From a virus, in the IMG/VR virus record IMGVR_UViG_3300038463_000101, positions 1-58,538 of that record: DNA of 58,538 nucleotides; one strand, written 5' to 3'. Below the pieces are notes generated by a model. That model saw only the letters and a list, made by a program, of their open reading frames with translations, did not search any database and was not told the DNA's origin. The first letter of the stretch is position 1, and every line of letters begins with the position of its first letter. The translations under genes and the position numbers were made by a program. This document shows positions 3,714 to 58,538 of the stretch, in pieces.

Positions 3714-3873
3714 GGTCTGACCGCCATCCCACCATCACCGGCTTCGGTTGGCGCTTCCAACCCTTGAATGGGCGAAACCGCACTTCCCAAGAGCCGATGG
3801 ACTTATCGAAGCCCGGAACCAACCGCAGACTGCGTAACTCCCGGCTCATCTTGCGTGCTGCACTCAGAGTCAT
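3706..3873 (-). CDS. Hypothetical protein, 55 aa
   Basis: ATG at 3873, immediately behind promoter-like box A (GATAAC then six bases, then ATG). The upstream AGAGGATAACGAGAAA could also serve as a weak ribosome site. Small basic protein with a beta-rich GSWEVRFRPFKGWKRQPKP segment that resembles small phage DNA- or RNA-binding proteins, but no family is identified. It overlaps the next gene by 8 nt. Confidence 0.6.
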   Translation of the reverse strand: MTLSAARKMSRELRSLRLVPGFDKSIGSWEVRFRPFKGWKRQPKPVMVGWRSDHA

Positions 3874-3910
3874 TTTCTCGTTATCCTCTCAAAGTTCCAG
3901 ATTCTAAAAA
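3871..3910 (-). promoter_or_regulatory. Repeated promoter-like box A
   Basis: On the minus strand this reads TTTTTAGAATCTGGAACTT followed by TGAGAGGATAACGAGAAAATG. It shares GGAACTT-CGAGAG and the downstream AACGAG with boxes B (4535), C (5730) and D (5778). TTTAGA and GATAAC can be read as -35 and -10 with 17 nt between, putting the -10 six bases before the ATG at 3873. Confidence 0.55.
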
Positions 3911-4165
3911 CTTACTGTCATACTTCCTACGCGCCCGCGCCCGCACACTCGGCACGTAGCGCTGCCGGTTATACTCCCGCATTGCCTTCTTGCACGCGGC
4001 GCATCGGCACCCCAGCCCCGCGTACCGGCTGATTGTGCCGTGCTGCGCCTTCGTCTCGGCCTTGAGTTTCGGAGCGCGTTTAGGAGCCGCGCCCCGTCTC
4101 ATACGCTGGCGTTCCGCCCAGTCGTAAGCCGCCTCAATCATCGCGTCGAGCGTCACTGGTAGCAT
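3881..4165 (-). CDS. Cys-rich hypothetical phage protein, 94 aa
   Basis: The C-terminal half holds HGTISRYAGLGCRCAACKKA followed by MREYNRQRY. This is a recurrent phage small-protein motif (HGT...GCRC..C...Y.R.R) that probably binds zinc or nucleic acid. The N-terminal half is helical and basic. ATG at 4165 lies within the end of the upstream gene (32-nt overlap); ATG at 4141 is an alternative. No enzymatic function is suggested by the sequence. Confidence 0.65.
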   Translation of the reverse strand: MLPVTLDAMIEAAYDWAERQRMRRGAAPKRAPKLKAETKAQHGTISRYAGLGCRCAACKKAMREYNRQRYVPSVRARARRKYDSKFLESGTLRG

Positions 4166-4274: not shown

Positions 4275-4537
4275 ATCGGCGTCACGTCCGGTTCGTAGTC
4301 GGTCGGCGCGTCCTGGGTGATGGCGTCGGATGCTCGCGCCAGTTCTACGAAATTCAGGTAGTTCCGCAGCGTCTTCTCCAATGCCGCAATATGCTCGTTG
4401 GTCATGTGAAATGAGATTTGCGAATCGCCAAGCGGACAAAAGACAATTAAATTTTCGGAATGCTTGGTTACTGTCGGCTCAATCACCTTATCGGCGTCAA
4501 GCAAGATCGAAGTGGTGCTGTACTGCTGATGTGTCAT
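4271..4537 (-). CDS. Hypothetical protein, 88 aa
   Basis: ATG at 4537 lies directly behind promoter-like box B with the same six-base gap as at box A. The protein looks alpha/beta, with ENLIVFCPLGDSQISFHM and a helical EHIAALEKTLRNYLNFVELA. No family recognised. Its stop overlaps the following membrane-protein start (ATGA). Confidence 0.65.
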   Translation of the reverse strand: MTHQQYSTTSILLDADKVIEPTVTKHSENLIVFCPLGDSQISFHMTNEHIAALEKTLRNYLNFVELARASDAITQDAPTDYEPDVTPI

Positions 4538-4574
4538 TTTCTCGTTATCCTTCCGAAGTTTGAAATTTAAAAAA
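4535..4574 (-). promoter_or_regulatory. Repeated promoter-like box B
   Basis: Minus-strand sequence ends GGATAACGAGAAAATG, identical over 16 bases to box A. The upstream part (TTTAAATTTCAAACTTCGGA) is a diverged version of the GGAACTTCGAGAG box. GATAAC lies six bases before the ATG at 4537. Confidence 0.5.
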
Positions 4575-4591
4575 CCCTGACTACACTGCGG

Positions 4592-5704: not shown

Positions 5705-5729
5705 TTCCTCTGCGCCTCCCAGCGCTCAA

Positions 5730-5814
5730 AACTCGTTTAACTCTCGAAGTTCCAAAATTCAAAAAATTTACGACAAAAACTCGTTTAAAGTCTCGAAGTT
5801 CCAAAACCTAAAAA
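5730..5814 (-). promoter_or_regulatory. Tandem promoter-like boxes C and D
   Basis: Two copies, about 48 nt apart, of TTTTGGAACTTCGAGA followed by (G/CT)TTAAACGAG on the minus strand. Box C (5730-5766) can be read as TTGAAT-N16/17-TTAAAC; box D (5778-5814) as TTTAGG-N17-TTTAAA. The spacer half AACTTCGAGAGTT is an imperfect palindrome. They lie between the 5828-6040 and 5393-5704 genes and would drive the leftward operon. Confidence 0.55.
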
Positions 5815-7404: not shown

Positions 7405-7641
7405 TCAAACCTTCCCCTCCTTCATTAGCCTGCTATACAAAGCATGGGCGTCTTTATCGGTAGCAGTTCCCGCCGCGATCATCCGCAAGCACTCCAAAGC
7501 TTCGTAACCAGCCAAGAGCCCGCCGTACAAACGATCAACCCTCGCAAACTCTTTCGGCACATCGGCGCGTAGGATAGCCGCATCGAACAGAAGTTTATAG
7601 AGAGCACGTTCAGCCCGCAGCTGCATTGGCGTCGATGACAC
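7405..7641 (-). CDS. Hypothetical helical protein, 78 aa
   Basis: GTG at 7641 is chosen because GGAGGT lies five bases upstream; an internal ATG at 7626 is the alternative. The protein is almost wholly helical (RAERALYKLLFDAAILRADV, GLLAGYEALECLRMIAAG). It overlaps the 3' end of the RHH gene by about 30 nt, so both are read from one mRNA, and it converges on the DUF932 terminator. Confidence 0.65.
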   Translation of the reverse strand: MSSTPMQLRAERALYKLLFDAAILRADVPKEFARVDRLYGGLLAGYEALECLRMIAAGTATDKDAHALYSRLMKEGKV

Positions 7642-8029
7642 CAAACACCTCCGGCGGCCGTACACAGAGTTCCTCGCCAGTGCTGAGAACCTTCCCGTAT
7701 TGATCGGTCACGACCGGGCCTGGTAACGGAATGCCCAACTTTTCGCGGCAATGCTTGCAAATGCAAATGTAGCGAATACGTCTCTCCTTGCCAGCTCCCC
7801 TTCGGCTATTCGCAAGGTCTGCCCCGATCAGGATATTCCTGCCCTCGCAGTGCTTTCCACCCGCCTTACACTCCGGGCAGATGAAAAACTCATCCTCGAT
7901 CGGGAATCCCAGCAGCGCGAACCGACGGATAGCGTAACGCAGCACGGCCGCCACGCTCATTCCCATCTCAGTCGCCTTACCGTCCAATATGTCTAAGATA
8001 TCGTCTCCAACGTCAACAGTCTTGTGCAT
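7610..8029 (-). CDS. Putative ribbon-helix-helix regulator with zinc ribbon
   Basis: 139 aa. Residues 1-43 look like a ribbon-helix-helix DNA-binding domain: a beta strand (HKTVDVGDDI), a helix, a GMS turn, and VAAVLRYAIRRFALLGF. Residues ~50-95 carry CPEC and CKHC pairs that would bind zinc. Strong ribosome site AGAGGAGAA before ATG 8029. Upstream is an AT-rich region with inverted repeats (8030-8401), so this is a candidate phage regulator and possible repressor; direct evidence for operator binding is absent. Confidence 0.65.
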   Translation of the reverse strand: MHKTVDVGDDILDILDGKATEMGMSVAAVLRYAIRRFALLGFPIEDEFFICPECKAGGKHCEGRNILIGADLANSRRGAGKERRIRYICICKHCREKLGIPLPGPVVTDQYGKVLSTGEELCVRPPEVFGVIDANAAAG

Positions 8030-8767: not shown

Positions 8768-9145
8768 CTGACCGCGATTCTAGCGCAAACGCGCCATAAA
8801 CGCATATCGGCCGCCCGCCAGCACCCGCGCATACATTCTTCTTCAGAACTTTGTATAGATAGGTCGATAGTCTGGTAATTTTGCTAGTCCATAGTCTGCC
8901 GCCGAGTTGTCGGTTATGGGGAGGCGCAGGAAAATTCGCGGCATGTTCGAGATGCAGAAAAGGGTTGGTGCAGATCCCGGCTGGTAGCGTGTGGGGGGTT
9001 GACAGGGCGGCTGGTAGCGTGTAGACTGGTAGCGTGTAGGCGCATAGCCACAGCTCAGGTACGTTCGGCTTTGCACCCGAAACGTGGAGAGAAGCCTGAT
9101 CGGCCTACGCTTTGCTTTTGATTCGACCAGGGGAAGGAAGGGTAG
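8768..9145. promoter_or_regulatory. Intergenic control region with three CTGGTAGCGTGT repeats
   Basis: No real gene is seen. CTGGTAGCGTGT occurs at 8981, 9011 and 9026. The middle copy lies inside the spacer of a promoter, TTGACA (8999-9004)-N17-TAGACT (9022-9027), which would transcribe rightward into the gene at 9146 after a leader of about 110 nt. Its CTGGTAGCG core is the same as that of the phage-wide operator box CTGGTAGCGACTAG. Confidence 0.7.
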
Positions 9146-9502: not shown

Positions 9503-9532
9503 TTGACACGTTCATCTGGTAGCGACTACACT
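9503..9532 (+). promoter_or_regulatory. Operator-containing promoter ahead of gene 9542
   Basis: TTGACA (9503-9508), then TCTGGTAGCGAC, then TACACT (9527-9532) at 18-nt spacing. The operator-like CTGGTAGCGACTA spans the spacer and -10. The ATG at 9542 follows the -10 by nine bases, with no ribosome site, so the mRNA would be leaderless. Confidence 0.6.
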
Positions 9533-9541
9533 TGAGCGTAG

Positions 9542-9754
9542 ATGGGAAAGGCACAGGAGAGGACGGCAGAGACGTACCCCGTAGGGACGGAGTTTCACTG
9601 CTTGCGATGTGGATTCAAGTGGCAGAGCCGGAAGGAGTGGCCGAAGCCGAAAGGACCGGATGCCTGCGGTAATTGCAAGAGTGGGCAGTGGTATCGGCCG
9701 CCGCAACGGGTGCCACATGCGAGTAGGGGCGTGGGGGCGGAGCCGGCGGGGTAA
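9542..9754 (+). CDS. Zinc-ribbon protein, 70 aa
   Basis: Two Cys pairs (CLRCGF and CGNC, about 22 residues apart) with aromatic residues between them (FKWQSRKEWPKPKGPDA) form a probable zinc ribbon; the C-terminus is basic and unstructured. The start lies nine bases behind a TACACT box. Function unknown; likely nucleic-acid binding. Confidence 0.65.
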   Translation: MGKAQERTAETYPVGTEFHCLRCGFKWQSRKEWPKPKGPDACGNCKSGQWYRPPQRVPHASRGVGAEPAG

Positions 9755-9758
9755 GGCT

Positions 9759-10133
9759 GTGGCACCCTCATGGGCAGTTAGGCTGCGCACGTTGTTAGAC
9801 GCGACCGGCTGGACGCAGGAGCAGGCATCGGCGCGGTTTAAGCGGTCGTGGTCATCATTGGCGCGGGTCTTGAAGGGTAATAAGACCGTAAAGATGGTGG
9901 AGTTAGTGGTGCGGTTGAAGGAGTTGGAGGAGGCACATGCGGGAGAGATTGAAGCGCTCAGGGCAGGGGTCATCAGTTACCGGAGGCACCGCGGCCGTGA
10001 TGGGAAGCTTAAGAGGAGAGTCCGGTATGACTTCCGGGCGAGAGTCAGAGCGCAAGGGGAGCGCGTTAGTCGGCCTGCTGACCTCGCGGCGATGGGAGCG
10101 GTGGGCGGGGGTAATGAGGGTGAGGGGGTTTGA
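9759..10133 (+). CDS. Helix-turn-helix protein, 124 aa
   Basis: Near the N-terminus, WAVRLRTLLDATGWTQEQAS then ARFKRSWSSLARVLKGNKT has the layout of an XRE-type helix-turn-helix. A predicted coiled helix (VVRLKELEEAHAGEIEALRA) and a very basic tail follow. GTG at 9759, just after the previous stop, is preferred; ATG at 9717 is possible. A candidate transcription regulator or small terminase-like DNA binder. The second half overlaps the next gene in another frame. Confidence 0.6.
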   Translation: MAPSWAVRLRTLLDATGWTQEQASARFKRSWSSLARVLKGNKTVKMVELVVRLKELEEAHAGEIEALRAGVISYRRHRGRDGKLKRRVRYDFRARVRAQGERVSRPADLAAMGAVGGGNEGEGV

Positions 10134-23593: not shown

Positions 23594-23622
23594 TTGCGTC
23601 TTGGTAGCGACTAGGGTAGAAT
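23594..23622 (+). promoter_or_regulatory. Operator-containing promoter
   Basis: TTGCGT (23594-23599), 17-nt spacer containing TTGGTAGCGACTAGGG, and TAGAAT (23617-23622). One of at least six promoters with the CTGGTAGCGACTAG palindrome in the spacer. ATG 23633 follows the -10 by ten bases. Confidence 0.75.
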
Positions 23623-23632
23623 TATTTTCAGA

Positions 23633-23881
23633 ATGGATTTTACCCGTAGTTCAGTCCTTACCCCTGAAGTATCTACCGCCATTGATGATGCTTTTGAGTA
23701 TCACAAATGGACAGATGAGCAAGTCGAGGCAGGCAAAGCGATTCGCCAAGCCTTAGCCGATGCAGTCAAAGCCATTATAAAAGGCGCTCCTCCCTGTCCA
23801 GACCGGACGACCGCGATTCGCAAGTTGAGGGAAGCACGGATGGATGCAAACTCCGCGATTACGCACGGAGGCAAATACTAA
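23633..23881 (+). CDS. Hypothetical protein, 82 aa
   Basis: Leaderless or nearly so, ten bases behind TAGAAT. Helical protein: VSTAIDDAFEYHKWTDEQVE, then DRTTAIRKLREARMDANSAI. The pattern of two paired helices ending in ANSAITHGG recurs in small phage proteins (compare 23891), often in the place of Acb1-family or similar accessory genes; no function can be claimed. Confidence 0.65.
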   Translation: MDFTRSSVLTPEVSTAIDDAFEYHKWTDEQVEAGKAIRQALADAVKAIIKGAPPCPDRTTAIRKLREARMDANSAITHGGKY

Positions 23882-27238: not shown

Positions 27239-27604
27239 ATGCCCCAGCTTCCCAAAATGAACATCCCCTGCGACGGCTACCCGGCCTCCGCAGCGCTGTG
27301 CGTAAAGAAGCATTACGTGGGCGATCATTTCGGAAGCAACAACTACCAGCAGGGCGGCTACAACATCAACGCCAGCGACTTAGCGATGTCTGGATTCGAG
27401 TGGGTGAACTTTACAGCAGGCAGTAATTCCGGCAATTACACGGCCTCGGCCACGCTCGCGGGCGCTTCCGGAAACATGGAACAGCGGGCGCGGGTGTTTC
27501 CTTCCATTGCGATGCAGTGGTATTACGCGAACAACAGCAACGAAGTGGCGAACAATACCGACCTGAGCGCGGAGTGTATCCGGCTGTTTGGGATAGGGTT
27601 ATGA
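27239..27604 (+). CDS. Paralog 1 of a tandem virion-like family, 121 aa
   Basis: ATG six bases after TAAACT, no ribosome site. Family features are shared with 28018 and 28418. They are PcDgYPas near residue 12, KKHYVGDHFGSNNYQQGGY, SDLAMSGFEWVNFTAGSNSG, and VANNTDLSAECIRLFGIGL at the end. Beta-rich and Asn/Gly/Ser-rich, as in fibre or decoration proteins. The first copy differs from the others by an N-terminal MPQLPKM and a Cys pair. Confidence 0.75.
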   Translation: MPQLPKMNIPCDGYPASAALCVKKHYVGDHFGSNNYQQGGYNINASDLAMSGFEWVNFTAGSNSGNYTASATLAGASGNMEQRARVFPSIAMQWYYANNSNEVANNTDLSAECIRLFGIGL

Positions 27605-42314: not shown

Positions 42315-42343
42315 ATGATATCCTAGTCGCTACCAGGATGCAA
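42315..42343 (-). promoter_or_regulatory. Operator-containing leaderless promoter
   Basis: On the minus strand: TTGCAT (42338-42343), a 17-nt spacer with CCTGGTAGCGACTAGGA, TATCAT (42315-42320), then six bases and ATG. Confidence 0.75.
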
Positions 42344-42349
42344 CTGTTT

Positions 42350-43990
42350 TTATCGGGTATTCAGCGCCATGATGCCGTCGATGGCGTTCGGGTCGTTCGT
42401 CACATCGGAAGTGTGGCCGCGCACTTTCCGTGCTTGCTGAAGTTCCTGAATGGCCTGCTTGAGTTGCGCGTCGGTTAAGTTTGGTAACTCTTCCCGCAAC
42501 CGTTTGACGGTGATCGGGTAGTCGGGCATCTCTTTTTCGAGACGGGTTACCGTGTCGAGAACGCGCTGGGCGGGCTTACTGGTGGGCGGGCTCGCGGGCT
42601 TGGCTTGCTGGGGCTGGGAAGGCTGCGGGGCCATCTCCGGTTCTGGCTTCACCTTGCCGGTTTCAAGGCCGCGCAGTTCAAACAAGATGCGGTTGAAAGT
42701 CTCTTCGCTATTCTTCCCCAGCGCTTTCGTGCGCTCCTCTGGGCTGAGAGACTTCAGTTGCTCAACAGTCACGCCTTGCTTGTGAAGGTCGTTTGCTGAA
42801 CGGATAGCTTTCTTTACTTGCGCGTGGACCTTGTAGTATTCGTCGGTCGGACGCGGAGCACGGCCACCAGCGGCTGGTGCTTCGGTTGGTGCTTCGGTCT
42901 TAGCGCTGGCAGCTTCCTCCGTTACCGGACCTTGCCGGAACTTCACCGCCGGGGCCGGGTAGACCTTCCGTGGCGCTTCTGGCTCCGGTTCCTTGAACTT
43001 CACCGGGGGCGCGGGCTTGGGCTCCGTCTTCGGTTCGGACCTGAACTTCACCGGGGGCGCGGGCTTGGGTGCGGGCGGCTCATGGCTCTTGAACGTTACG
43101 GGCGGCGGCGGTACCGGCTTACCCGGCTTCGGATCGCCCTCCCCCGCCGTGTGCCAGTTCTTTATCGGTGGCGGCTTGACGGGCTTGCGGGGCGGTGCAT
43201 CCTCCACGCCGTTCGCTTTCTTCAGCGCTTTGATGAGTCCTTCCTTGGCCGACTTGTAGATTTCCGGCGCGGCTCCAACGATGCCGCCGATGGTAGCGCC
43301 GGTTTCCGAGTGGCCGGCGATGGCACCGATATGCTTACCAACTTCAACGCCGACTAAGCCGCCGCCGTAAGTGCGGAGCTTGCCCATCGCCTTGGCGGCG
43401 CCGGATACTGCGCCACCAGTAGCTTTAGCCGCCGTCCGTACCGCCGGGGCTTTCGCAATCTTAACCGCCCTCGCCGCATCCGTACCGACCAACTCCAACA
43501 GGTGAGCGCTGGCTTGGCCGTACTGCTCGTTCTGAATTTCCCGCGAGATTTGATTTGCCATCGGGCCAAAGACAGGGATTAGGCTTTCGACAGCCTTGAT
43601 GGTTCCCTGCCCAACGTTGCCTTCCTTTAGATCGGAATATGCTTGCTTGGCGGTGTCGATGTGGGACTGAAGGATTCCACCAGCGGTATTCTTAGCAAAC
43701 GTGCCGACCGGACCAAGCGCGTAATCGGCAATACCCTTTGGTGCGGCGGCTTCGCCCATTCCCTTGATGTCGCTGCCGAGTGTCGAGAAAAAGCCCTTAT
43801 CTGGCGGGTTCTGGTTTGCGCCGGTTCCCTGGCCGAGAAACTTTAGGTGAGCCTTGGCGACAACAAGCCCCTGCTCCTTGGGCGGTAACCCGGCAAAGTT
43901 AGGGTCGAGAGTTCGCATTACCTTCAACTGCTCACCGGAAGGGAGAGCGTGAAAGTTAGGATCGACCAAAACTTCTTGCGGCGTGGGCAT
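42350..43990 (-). CDS. Putative internal virion protein with Pro/Lys repeats, 546 aa
   Basis: Middle region is Ala/Gly-rich with a glycine-zipper-like stretch (GKHIGAIAGHSETGATIGGI), then a Pro-rich linker repeating (P)PPVKF/VTF/AVKF five times. The C-terminus is helical (LEKEMPDYPITVKRLREELP). Such layout fits ejected internal proteins or tape-measure-like proteins of podoviruses that cross the envelope. Function inferred from composition and neighbour. Confidence 0.6.
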   Translation of the reverse strand: MPTPQEVLVDPNFHALPSGEQLKVMRTLDPNFAGLPPKEQGLVVAKAHLKFLGQGTGANQNPPDKGFFSTLGSDIKGMGEAAAPKGIADYALGPVGTFAKNTAGGILQSHIDTAKQAYSDLKEGNVGQGTIKAVESLIPVFGPMANQISREIQNEQYGQASAHLLELVGTDAARAVKIAKAPAVRTAAKATGGAVSGAAKAMGKLRTYGGGLVGVEVGKHIGAIAGHSETGATIGGIVGAAPEIYKSAKEGLIKALKKANGVEDAPPRKPVKPPPIKNWHTAGEGDPKPGKPVPPPPVTFKSHEPPAPKPAPPVKFRSEPKTEPKPAPPVKFKEPEPEAPRKVYPAPAVKFRQGPVTEEAASAKTEAPTEAPAAGGRAPRPTDEYYKVHAQVKKAIRSANDLHKQGVTVEQLKSLSPEERTKALGKNSEETFNRILFELRGLETGKVKPEPEMAPQPSQPQQAKPASPPTSKPAQRVLDTVTRLEKEMPDYPITVKRLREELPNLTDAQLKQAIQELQQARKVRGHTSDVTNDPNAIDGIMALNTR

Positions 43991-45783
43991 TATTGTGAAA
44001 TCGACTTCAGGTAATCTTCGGCGGTCTTCGGAACACTCCCCGGCGCTTTCTTCGGTGTGCTCGTGGCACCACCCCTACTTGCCTCCCCAATCGACCCGGA
44101 GCCCAACTTGCTCCGCAACCCCGCAATTTGGTTCTGGAACGCCTTCTGCTCCGTATCGGCCTCAATCTTCAACTGATCGACGGCGGCTATCACGTCCTTG
44201 ATCGTGGCGTCTTTGCGTAGAACTTGCTCACCCTTCTCTGTGGCGGATACAGGAAGCATCGCGCGTGATTGCACGCCACCGGCCACCAAGCGGCCATATT
44301 CGCGCTGTACGGCGTTCAGTGCGATGATGTAGCGTTGCAGTTCCGGGTGTGAACTGGCATTCTGTTGTAGCCATTGCACGGTGCGGTTGGCTAGCGGAAT
44401 CCCGCCGGGTCCGTAATCCTGCGCGGCTTTTAACAGCACATCGCTATGCGCCTTCAACGTTTCCTGCACACGCCCGAACGCGCCGGAGACTTCCACGGCT
44501 TGCGCGAGAGCTTTCCCTGTGGCTTTGTCTTCGACCAGCGCGGCGTTGAGTGCCATCGGGTCGAGGCCAGTGATGCGGGCGAGGGCACGCATACCCGCGA
44601 TCTTTCGGGCGCTGCCCTTAGTCGGAACCTTCATGGTGCCTAAAAGATCGCCAAGATACGTGTCGATATTGTCCTGGTCGGTCGGAGTCAGACCAGACGG
44701 CGTATTCTTTGTGTCGAGCTTTGACGTTGGGGCGGGCTTTGGGCCACCACCGCCACCCGTAGACGCAGAGGGAGCGGAGCCGCCACCACCGATACCAGAA
44801 ATAGCTTGGTCGATGGCGATGTTCTGCTCTTGACGTTCAAGCCTCACGTTGAACTCGCGGTCCACCTTGCTTGCCGCTTCAGCGCGTGCCTGCTCTGCCG
44901 TCATGCCCTTGCCAAGAGCCGCACGATAGTAGTTCCCGAACGAACCATAGGAGTCCTGCCGCATCTGCGCGGTGACTTCGGACGGGTTGTATTGCTCCGT
45001 TCCTTCCGGCACTGGTTGGCCAGTATTGGCGTTGAAAACCTTGCCTGGGTCTTGCGGGTCGATGCGAACGGCGATGGTTTTACCGTCTGGGGTCTTGGCC
45101 CATCCAGCTTGCAGGTTATGCTTCTTGACGCCCTCCTGCTTGTCCACTTCCGTTTTGGCCAGCCGCTTCTCTGCTTCCTCATGGCTCACGTTGTACGTTT
45201 CCATATAGGACTGGATTAGGCTCTCTCGCCTCTGCGCCACGCTGGCGACCTTCGCCCGCTCCTGCCCAATCTTCAGGTCGGACTCGTACTTGAGCATCGA
45301 ACGCTTGCGTGCGTCTTCTCGCGCCTCCGCATCGCTGCCATACCCCTGCATCATCCCGGCAAAATCCGGCCCTTGCTTGAAGCGCTGGCTCGCGGCCTGT
45401 GGCTGCGGCTGTTGCTGCGGCGCTGGCACCTGCGTACCGGGGGGAACCTGGCCGGAAGTGGCGGCTTGCGTCTGTGGGGCCGGGGCCGGCTGCTGGCCCT
45501 GCGGCTGCTGCTTGCCTTGCTGTCCGCGTATCTTCTGGAAAATTTGGCTCAGTTGCGGAGCAATCTTCGCCAACCCCTTTTTGCTTTCAGGGTTGTAAAG
45601 CTTTTGCAACTGCTCCATCGCCATCTGGTGACCGGCATCGGACACCTGGGGGTTCAGCAAAATAGAGTACAGCGCGTCTCGCTGTTCTTTCTTGCGGCCC
45701 TCTTCCTCTTGGTGCTTCTCTTCGAGCTTCTTACCAAGCGTGTTTTGGATGCCTTGCGCGAATGCGCCGATTGCGCTGCCCAT
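43990..45783 (-). CDS. Putative internal virion protein, 597 aa
   Basis: N-terminal coiled coil (TLGKKLEEKHQEEEGRKKEQ), a Gln/Pro-rich linker (~residues 95-135), and long helical segments (RRESLIQSYMETYNVSHEEA). C-terminal helices include AVQREYGRLVAGGVQSRAML. Overlaps the next gene end. The large size and helical composition fit an ejection protein. It begins three bases after a small leaderless gene. Confidence 0.6.
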   Translation of the reverse strand: MGSAIGAFAQGIQNTLGKKLEEKHQEEEGRKKEQRDALYSILLNPQVSDAGHQMAMEQLQKLYNPESKKGLAKIAPQLSQIFQKIRGQQGKQQPQGQQPAPAPQTQAATSGQVPPGTQVPAPQQQPQPQAASQRFKQGPDFAGMMQGYGSDAEAREDARKRSMLKYESDLKIGQERAKVASVAQRRESLIQSYMETYNVSHEEAEKRLAKTEVDKQEGVKKHNLQAGWAKTPDGKTIAVRIDPQDPGKVFNANTGQPVPEGTEQYNPSEVTAQMRQDSYGSFGNYYRAALGKGMTAEQARAEAASKVDREFNVRLERQEQNIAIDQAISGIGGGGSAPSASTGGGGGPKPAPTSKLDTKNTPSGLTPTDQDNIDTYLGDLLGTMKVPTKGSARKIAGMRALARITGLDPMALNAALVEDKATGKALAQAVEVSGAFGRVQETLKAHSDVLLKAAQDYGPGGIPLANRTVQWLQQNASSHPELQRYIIALNAVQREYGRLVAGGVQSRAMLPVSATEKGEQVLRKDATIKDVIAAVDQLKIEADTEQKAFQNQIAGLRSKLGSGSIGEASRGGATSTPKKAPGSVPKTAEDYLKSISQ

Positions 45784-45933: not shown

Positions 45934-45972
45934 AGTTTACCCTTGCGTTCTGGTAGCGACTAGGGTTATAGT
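45934..45972. promoter_or_regulatory. Bidirectional operator-containing promoter
   Basis: Plus: TTGCGT (45943-45948)-N17-TTATAG (45966-45971). Minus: TAGTCG-N17-TAAACT (45934-45939). The palindrome CTGGTAGCGACTAG is in both spacers. Both downstream start codons lie within about ten bases of the -10. Confidence 0.7.
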
Positions 45973-46173: not shown

Positions 46174-46306
46174 TATAATGTAAATGGTCAGGCGGCAACT
46201 TCGGTTGCTGGTGCGCGAGTCACGGAAAACCGATTGTAGGATCTTTTGCGTTTCGCTAGAGCCGTCAATCGGCTACCGCCGCATTTATTAGCTAACGCCT
46301 GACCAG
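46174..46306 (+). ncRNA. Candidate structured RNA, about 120 nt
   Basis: Perfect TATAAT (46174-46179), then TGGTCAGGCG (46185-46194), which pairs with CGCCTGACCA (46296-46305). Inside: GCAAC-TTCG-GTTGC (46195-46208) and CCGATTG (46230-46236)/CAATCGG (46266-46272) enclosing a GCG-TTT-CGC hairpin. The nested, closed architecture fits a folded RNA. No good -35 was seen. The outer stem is also consistent with an inverted-repeat DNA element. It fills a gap between a plus and a minus gene. Confidence 0.5.
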
Positions 46307-46597
46307 TTACTTCCCGCGCATCTTGCTGTAGCGCTTGTTCTGCTTCTTTGTCAGTACCCGCTCGCCCTTATGCACCTTGGCCATGCCGGTCTTCTTCACC
46401 ATGCCGCCTTTTTTGAAGGAGCCGGCATCGCCAGCATCGCCTACATCGGAAGCGGGGGAGCCGCCAGAGGTGGTGTCGCTACCGCCGCTGCTGGAAGGCT
46501 TCCAATTCTTCAGCTTTTTGGCGGCTTTCTTGGCAGCATCACCACCACCACCACCACCACCCGTCAAGCCCGACATAAACCCGCCCAATGCGCCCAT
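46307..46597 (-). CDS. Gly-rich virion-like protein with basic tail, 96 aa
   Basis: N-terminus GALGGFMSGLTGGGGGGGD; the end KKGGMVKKTGMAKVHKGERV then LTKKQNKRYSKMRGK matches a recurrent phage basic tail. AGAGGTCTC upstream of ATG 46597. Could be an internal DNA-binding or tail protein. Confidence 0.6.
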   Translation of the reverse strand: MGALGGFMSGLTGGGGGGGDAAKKAAKKLKNWKPSSSGGSDTTSGGSPASDVGDAGDAGSFKKGGMVKKTGMAKVHKGERVLTKKQNKRYSKMRGK

Positions 46598-49574: not shown

Positions 49575-49608
49575 TTGATTTCCTTTCGTGTCAAGATTAT
49601 CATGGTCA

Positions 49609-49637
49609 AGATTATCATGGTCGCTACCAGAAAGCAA
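49609..49637 (-). promoter_or_regulatory. Operator-containing promoter variant
   Basis: Minus: TTGCTT-N17-TAATCT, with TCTGGTAGCGACCATGA in the spacer. The -10 region is doubled (TCAAGATTATCATGG twice). This is the one site of the group that feeds a gene with an ordinary ribosome-site leader. Confidence 0.65.
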
Positions 49638-50204: not shown

Positions 50205-50242
50205 AGTTTACCCTAGTCGCTACCAGAACGCAAGGGTAAACT
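50205..50242. promoter_or_regulatory. Bidirectional operator-containing promoter
   Basis: Minus: TTGCGT (50228-50233)-N17-TAAACT (50205-50210). Plus: TAGTCG (50214-50219)-N17-TAAACT (50237-50242). The operator lies in both spacers. Downstream ATGs are at ten (minus) and seven (plus) bases. Confidence 0.7.
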
Positions 50243-58078: not shown

Positions 58079-58115
58079 AGTTTAGCTTGATTCCTGGTAG
58101 CGACTAGGATATGAT
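58079..58115. promoter_or_regulatory. Bidirectional operator-containing promoter
   Basis: Plus: TTGATT (58087-58092)-N17-TATGAT (58110-58115), with CCTGGTAGCGACTAGGA in the spacer. Minus: TAGTCG-N16-TAAACT (58079-58084). Feeds 58135 and 58072. Confidence 0.75.
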
Positions 58116-58134
58116 GCGGGGTATGGAATCCCTC

Positions 58135-58538
58135 AATGTGTAACTTTGCCTCATTCGTTCTCACCAAGGATCGTGTTTTCTGGCTCGAAGACTTCGATTC
58201 GCATTCCGAAATCATCAGACATTTTAAATTGCACGAGCAGGGAGCTAGGGACGTCAACGTGCTTAACGTCGAAATTACCCCAACTGACCGTGTGAAGCAA
58301 TGGCCAGATTTGCGAGCGTGGAAATACAAAGTAGACCAAGATTTACGCCCAGAGTGGCACGATCCAGTAAAGGATGAAAAACGCGCACGGTCTGCGCTTA
58401 GAGAACGATTCAAAAAAGGTTTCAAGACCGTGGACGCCAGGGGTTGCACGGCTTTGACCGAGTTGAAGGCCGACGCGGCTGAGTACGTGGACGCCAGGGG
58501 TTGCACGGCTTTGACCGAGTTGAAGGCCGACGCGGCAA
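58135..58538 (+). CDS. Repeat protein of the MCNFASFVLTK type (DUF7666-like), partial
   Basis: Open to the right edge. MCNFASFVLTKDRVFWLEDF, then EITPTDRVKQWPDLRAWKYK, VDQDLRPEWHDPVKDEKRAR is a conserved phage N-terminus seen with long repeat tails. At residue ~99 an exact 19-residue repeat (VDARGCTALTELKADAAEY) begins. A leaderless six-codon ORF (ATG 58123, MESLNV) ends over the ATG 58135, suggesting coupling. Confidence 0.75.
58430..58538 (+). repeat. 57-nt tandem coding repeat, cut by window end
   Basis: Unit GTGGACGCCAGGGGTTGCAC... runs 58430-58486 and begins again identically at 58487 to the edge. It encodes VDARGCTALTELKADAAEY. Exact copies probably stopped the assembly. Confidence 0.85.

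Follow-up and report, generated by a model that had tools for sequence, protein, structure and literature searches.

Three putative divergent promoter modules share a 15-base site

The window analysed here is a complete IMG/VR virus record of 58,538 bases from a tailed phage. At three places in it, a divergent pair of ORFs is separated by a module (modules 1–3, Table 1) in which the 15-mer CTGGTAGCGACTAGG lies in the spacer of a primary promoter and a TAAACT hexamer stands on the opposite strand, 9–10 nt past the edge of the 15-mer and followed by an ATG another 6–7 nt further on. Promoter hexamers of both strands are found around one site in each module, the -10 boxes being clear and the secondary -35 weak. 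A preliminary description of this stretch had proposed three sites with a -10 box on each strand, TAAACT in the secondary direction each time and a start codon on either side, which the sequence confirms, with coordinates that are correct to within a few bases. Its list of sites was incomplete, however, as it contained these three places but missed further ones at 23601, 42336, 49630, 9516 and 8981/9011/9026. In a generic sigma-70 scan, only the primary promoter of module 3 passed.

The outward TAAACT promoters of modules 1 and 3 face structural genes (597-aa and 546-aa proteins at 45927-, the gp31-like 1453-aa protein at 58072-). On the primary side of module 3, the stop codon of the leaderless-looking uORF (58123-58143, +) overlaps the ATG of a longer ORF (58136-58538, +) that runs off the end of the contig. 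Its product (MCNFASF...) contains 19-aa tandem repeats, and the 57-bp DNA repeat reaches the contig end, where it may have caused the assembly to stop.

Table 1. Sites, promoters and genes of the proposed regulon in the window.
Feature	Position	Strand	Description
First TTGACA promoter	8981..9040	+	TTGACA (8999)-17-TAGACT (9022); three tandem operator variants CTGGTAGCGTGTRG at 8981, 9011, 9026
Second TTGACA promoter	9503..9532	+	TTGACA-18-TACACT; operator at 9516 runs into -10; near-leaderless ATG 9542
Zn-ribbon-like 70-aa protein (CxxC...CxxC)	9542..9754	+	First gene after 9516 operator; homolog in G013
HTH-like protein, candidate regulator	9759..10133	+	Weak HTH hits
One-way site	23594..23622	+	TTGCGT, operator at 23601 (1 mismatch), TAGAAT; ATG 23633
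One-way site	42315..42343	-	TTGCAT, exact operator (42336), TATCAT; leaderless-looking ATG 42308
Module 1, outward genes	43990-45783, then 42350-43990	-	Downstream of ATG 45927; 597-aa and 546-aa proteins
Module 1, secondary -10	45939-45934	-	TAAACT; ATG 45927 six nt downstream
Module 1, primary promoter	45943..45972	+	-35 TTGCGT 45943-45948, N18, -10 TATAGT 45967-45972
Module 1, operator	45950..45964	+	Exact copy, fixed phase in promoter spacer
Module 1, primary start	ATG 45980	+	Opens 35-aa ORF
One-way site	49609..49637	-	TTGCTT, operator (49630) with 2 mismatches, TAATCT
Module 2, primary start	ATG 50194	-	150-aa ORF
Module 2, primary promoter	50205..50233	-	-35 TTGCGT 50233-50228, N17, -10 TAAACT 50210-50205
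Module 2, operator	50212..50226	-	Exact copy
Module 2, secondary -10	50237-50242	+	TAAACT; ATG 50250 seven nt downstream; 99-aa ORF, then 706-aa ORF
Module 3, outward genes	from 58072	-	67-aa membrane-like protein, then gp31-like 1453-aa virion protein
Module 3, secondary -10	58084-58079	-	TAAACT; ATG 58072 six nt downstream
Module 3, primary promoter	58087..58115	+	-35 TTGATT 58087-58092, N17, -10 TATGAT 58110-58115
Module 3, operator	58094..58108	+	Exact copy
Module 3, primary start	ATG 58123	+	6-codon uORF

The phage terminase is 36% identical to that of Tunturi_1 and Tunturi_2, two Tunturiibacter phages isolated on an Acidobacteriota host (PMC11924767), and the virus, a soil phage, likely has a host of the same phylum. 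For comparison we used 14 IMG/VR contigs with a gp31 relative and two with a close terminase; the best relative is G013 (terminase 55% and capsid protein 66% identical). A small serine recombinase of 250 aa is the sole integrase-like gene recognised on the contig, which makes it uncertain whether the phage is temperate. Around the recombinase gene lie diverged direct repeats of a second family (CTCGTT...CTCGAAGTTCCAAAATTCAAAAA; 3869-3911, 4533-4575, 5724-5766, 5785-5814). Neither tRNA nor Rfam matches were found.

The site is dispersed over the genome and reads as an operator

The 15-mer occurs in four exact copies and seven copies with up to three mismatches, giving 11 matches where 1.0 is expected and a count that none of 100 shuffled sequences reached, so that one motif recurs over the genome above chance. 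A match with three mismatches at 1670, inside the primase gene, is probably fortuitous. All sites keep one orientation relative to their primary promoter, and the strong ones all overlap or flank a promoter rather than forming short intergenic, promoter-free sites of the stoperator kind. The word TGGTAGCG is common to eight of the 69 TTG-N16..18-TAnnnT sites of the phage, and all nine occurrences of CTGGTAGCG on the contig are TTG-TAnnnT promoter/operator sites.

Six of the copies lie at fixed phase inside TTGcnT-N17/18-TAnnnT promoters, with 7 nt from TTG to operator, and read roughly TTGcnTncTGGTAGCGACtAgGnTAnnnt when aligned by promoter direction. Three of the six are the divergent modules; the other three are one-way sites, without a divergent gene and without TAAACT. 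Downstream of the one at 42336 lies an operon with an exonuclease VIII-like gene, and the -10 region TAATCTTGACCATGA of the 49630 promoter is repeated by a 16-bp tandem duplication (about 49592-49623). The 82-aa protein encoded directly after the 23601 site (23633-23881, +) shows a sub-threshold match to the Acb2/Tad1 hairpin domain (1.3e-5, 25.8 bits, cut-off 27), has a 75% identical copy in G018 and is possibly a counter-defence sponge.

The fixed spacing to -35 and -10 in six promoters could mean that the 15-mer belongs to a core promoter element peculiar to the phage, recognised by a phage sigma factor or a modified polymerase. We consider this very unlikely, because the phase is shifted at 9011 and 9516, because the copies at 8981 and 9026 lie outside the promoter spacer altogether, and because the scanned proteins, a subset of the ORFs, included no recognisable RNA polymerase or sigma factor. 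The two TTGACA promoters have their operator at a distance of 12 and 13 nt from the TTG, as against 7 nt in the six others, so the motif is not fixed to one promoter position. At the first of these promoters, three CTGGTAGCGTGTRG copies sit before, inside and after TTGACA-17-TAGACT; together with the copy over the second, again at a different phase, they support reading the 15-mer as an operator and not as a core promoter element.

The operator does not resemble the ordinary palindromic CI type, a possibility that we rejected since its dyad is weak and absent from the early variant: CTGGTAGCGACTAG is an imperfect dyad with 10 of 14 positions matching, equalled by 3.7% of shuffles, and the early variant reaches just 6 of 14. 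The motif is peculiar to this phage. In the related phages it occurs at background level only and thus leaves no phylogenetic footprint, and it is absent from both the Acb2/Tad1-like gene of G018 and the Zn-ribbon/HTH region of G013. Elsewhere in IMG/VR, the exact form with promoter context was not found, and a search of genome contigs with a 17-mer returned five single matches in unrelated bacteria, which we take as chance. Among 15 related phages, no spacer 8-mer was common to four or more such promoter sites, except for a -10-region word in G008.

The outward starts resemble leaderless genes

The preliminary description had taken TAGTCG, the other half of the operator, as the secondary -35 box. 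This is not supported, as TAGTCG merely complements the CGACTA of the operator, fits TTGACA at just three of six positions, and also occurs at two sites that lack a divergent gene, 23601 and 42336. Conversely, TAAACT-N5-7-start occurs without the operator at 27239, 37366 (the gp30 homolog) and 47943, and the ortholog of gp30 in G013 shows TAAACT-N6-ATG. Bacterial leaderless genes are marked by a TAnnnT hexamer some 12 bp ahead of the start codon (PMC3160421). Across the phage family, TAnnnT lies six nt before 2.5% of starts, compared with 0.45% of internal ATGs, and is thus enriched at true starts at the 5–7 nt spacing of leaderless genes. TAAACT makes up six of the 16 TAnnnT start signals of this phage (P about 3e-6, or 4e-5 with duplicates collapsed). 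Taken together, the operator-free TAAACT starts, the family-wide enrichment and the bacterial precedent favour reading the secondary side as a leaderless TAAACT promoter, with little or no need for a -35, that abuts the shared operator. In keeping with this, all three outward genes lack a Shine-Dalgarno sequence at normal distance.

At three of the six in-phase sites, TAAACT falls in the correct 5-nt window, for which the genomic TAAACT frequency gives P about 3e-8. Modules 1 and 2, however, have 36 nt in common at 97% identity and in inverted orientation and are thus one duplicated module, which reduces the independent instances of the pattern from three to about two; counted once, the near-identical modules leave P about 1e-5. 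That the pattern recurs too exactly to be accidental, as first proposed, is therefore right in that chance is unlikely, but the three cases are not independent. We also considered a recombinase site or invertible segment, given the 36-nt inverted repeats and the serine recombinase, and rejected it because the other copies share just the operator and are all in promoters.

These figures bear on the view that only the primary promoters are real and that the opposite TAAACT and ATG are chance or a remnant, the outward genes being read from elsewhere. The poor secondary -35 (three of six), the origin of two of the three modules as copies and the failure of the generic scan to call the secondary promoters would all be accounted for in this way. 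It is nevertheless an unlikely explanation: TAAACT is found solely at the three divergent sites, an association that remains improbable by chance after copies are collapsed, the same signal precedes other structural genes and the gp30 ortholog of G013, and module 1 has come to lie between genes that are adjacent in G013.

Module 1 lies in an insertion next to a structural gene

In G013, the homologs of the genes flanking module 1 (46307-46597 and 43990-45783) are directly adjacent. In the present phage, they are separated by about 520 bp containing module 1, a 47-aa and a 35-aa ORF and a structured stretch. This insertion would otherwise cut the structural gene off from the promoter upstream of it, so that, relative to G013, the outward gene of module 1 needs either a promoter of its own or transcription reading through the inserted DNA. 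The 597-aa gene has its start in two copies, with ATGGGCAGCGCAATCGGC at both 45783 and 45927, which is consistent with a local rearrangement. The structured stretch (46183-46310) is strongly folded with a long outer stem (z -4.5 on the minus and -3.2 on the plus strand), has no Rfam match and was found in none of five relatives searched. On a larger scale, the block from gp31 to the late genes (about 39.9-58.5 kb) looks inverted and split by inserted gene blocks when compared with G013 and Tunturi_1.

One may speculate that a two-way cassette spreads, each insertion or reordering of the structural operons gaining a copy that restores late-gene expression on one side, drives the newcomer on the other and leaves all of them to be silenced by one regulator. 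We hold this to be improbable.

A candidate regulator and a model of two-way silencing

The natural candidate for an autoregulated regulator is the HTH-like protein encoded at 9759-10133, behind the second TTGACA promoter. G013 keeps the Zn-ribbon/HTH pair in the same order, with the HTH protein 33% identical. The family hits of the 9759-10133 protein are weak and its model is poor (mean pLDDT 53.6); single-sequence structure models of this protein and of the RHH-like protein 7610-8029 were too poor to use, and no solved relative was found.

The recurrence of the operator, its phase, the TAAACT on the opposite strand and the start codons stand in the sequence itself. On this basis we lean, with modest confidence, towards a dispersed repressor regulon that includes three overlapping divergent promoters, each pair sharing one operator. 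The 15-bp site would be the operator of a phage-encoded DNA-binding regulator, whose regulon would comprise four copies at the two TTGACA promoters, three of them in tandem, and single copies in six other spacers. At the divergent pairs, the bound protein would block RNA polymerase from either promoter, and the layout is most simply explained if one protein sterically silences both directions. As primary and secondary promoters overlap, they would admit one polymerase at a time. Absence or inactivation of the regulator would open both directions, one of which would feed structural operons (45927-, 58072- and, in all probability, 50250+), the other short genes that are accessory or structural. 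Beyond the features read from the sequence, we infer the identity of the regulator, the sign of regulation, leaderless transcripts and a possible link to lysogeny.

The main rival to repression in both directions is a site that binds an activator or dual regulator, which would repress the TTGACA promoters and activate the weaker TTGcnT ones, or favour one orientation at the divergent modules. SoxR provides a precedent, as it activates one divergent RNA and represses the other at a bidirectional promoter (PMC12825309), and the weak -35 boxes and rigid operator phase of the six TTGcnT promoters, together with the different phase at the TTGACA promoters, would suit such a protein. Yet the spacers are already 17 bp (one 18), so that a realignment of the MerR type would be unnecessary, and the fixed phase can equally be explained by the copying of modules, as in the 36 nt shared by modules 1 and 2. 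We regard an activator or dual regulator as rather unlikely and prefer the shared-operator repressor regulon.

Relation to known systems

The closest parallel to the dispersed operators is found in cluster A mycobacteriophages such as L5 and TipsytheTRex (PMC9283540), which likewise carry one short site throughout the genome and in promoters; their sites are asymmetric and oriented with transcription, and those of the present phage may be so too. In their operator/stoperator system, too, the candidate binder is an HTH protein, which is a prediction in the present phage. The two differ in that there are more than 20 sites in cluster A and about 10 here, nearly all of them in or against promoters with hardly any free stoperators; moreover, the sequences are unrelated, and some of the present sites are common to divergent promoters.

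Pr/Pc of pLS20 with RcoLS20 (PMC4207663) and the CI/Cro switch regions of phages are precedents for divergent promoters that overlap beneath a common regulator site. Those are single switch regions that set a repressor against the genes it controls, whereas the arrangement described here recurs at three places among structural and accessory genes. Bidirectional promoters of E. coli (PMC12825309) similarly place RNA polymerase on one DNA stretch in two exclusive orientations, but their starts are typically 10, 18 or 23 bp apart and they share a -10, while the phage -10 boxes are on the outside and the starts about 50 bp apart. Finally, the outward genes resemble leaderless TAnnnT-led genes (PMC3160421) in having a -10-like hexamer about 12 bp before the start and no Shine-Dalgarno sequence at normal distance; they differ in that the phage hexamer is biased to TAAACT and abuts an operator at three places.

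Related phages carry repeats of their own. G008 (59,682 bases) contains 24 exact and four near copies of the palindrome GTCYAACGTTRGAC, about one every 2 kb (e.g. 2748, 5444, 8601, 10536, 11144 and 12916), which are stoperator-like, with 14 of the 24 inside long ORFs. The same genome has a conserved promoter type, TTGACA...TTTGATAAC, at eight places (e.g. 13189, 29309, 49469 and 52121), several with a start codon close behind and leaderless-looking. In Tunturi_1, about eight copies of the palindrome GTCCRATATYGGAC are dispersed (including 33039, 52830, 53731, 55458 and 62511).

Each element of the present arrangement has a precedent; what looks new is to see them combined, and repeatedly so, in a single phage of an understudied group. 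Phages of the likely host phylum have hardly been studied. If the reading is right, this one would show how a single repressor can, in a compact arrangement, shut off both strands at several loci, with operator placement tied to leaderless late promoters and to the positions of accessory genes.
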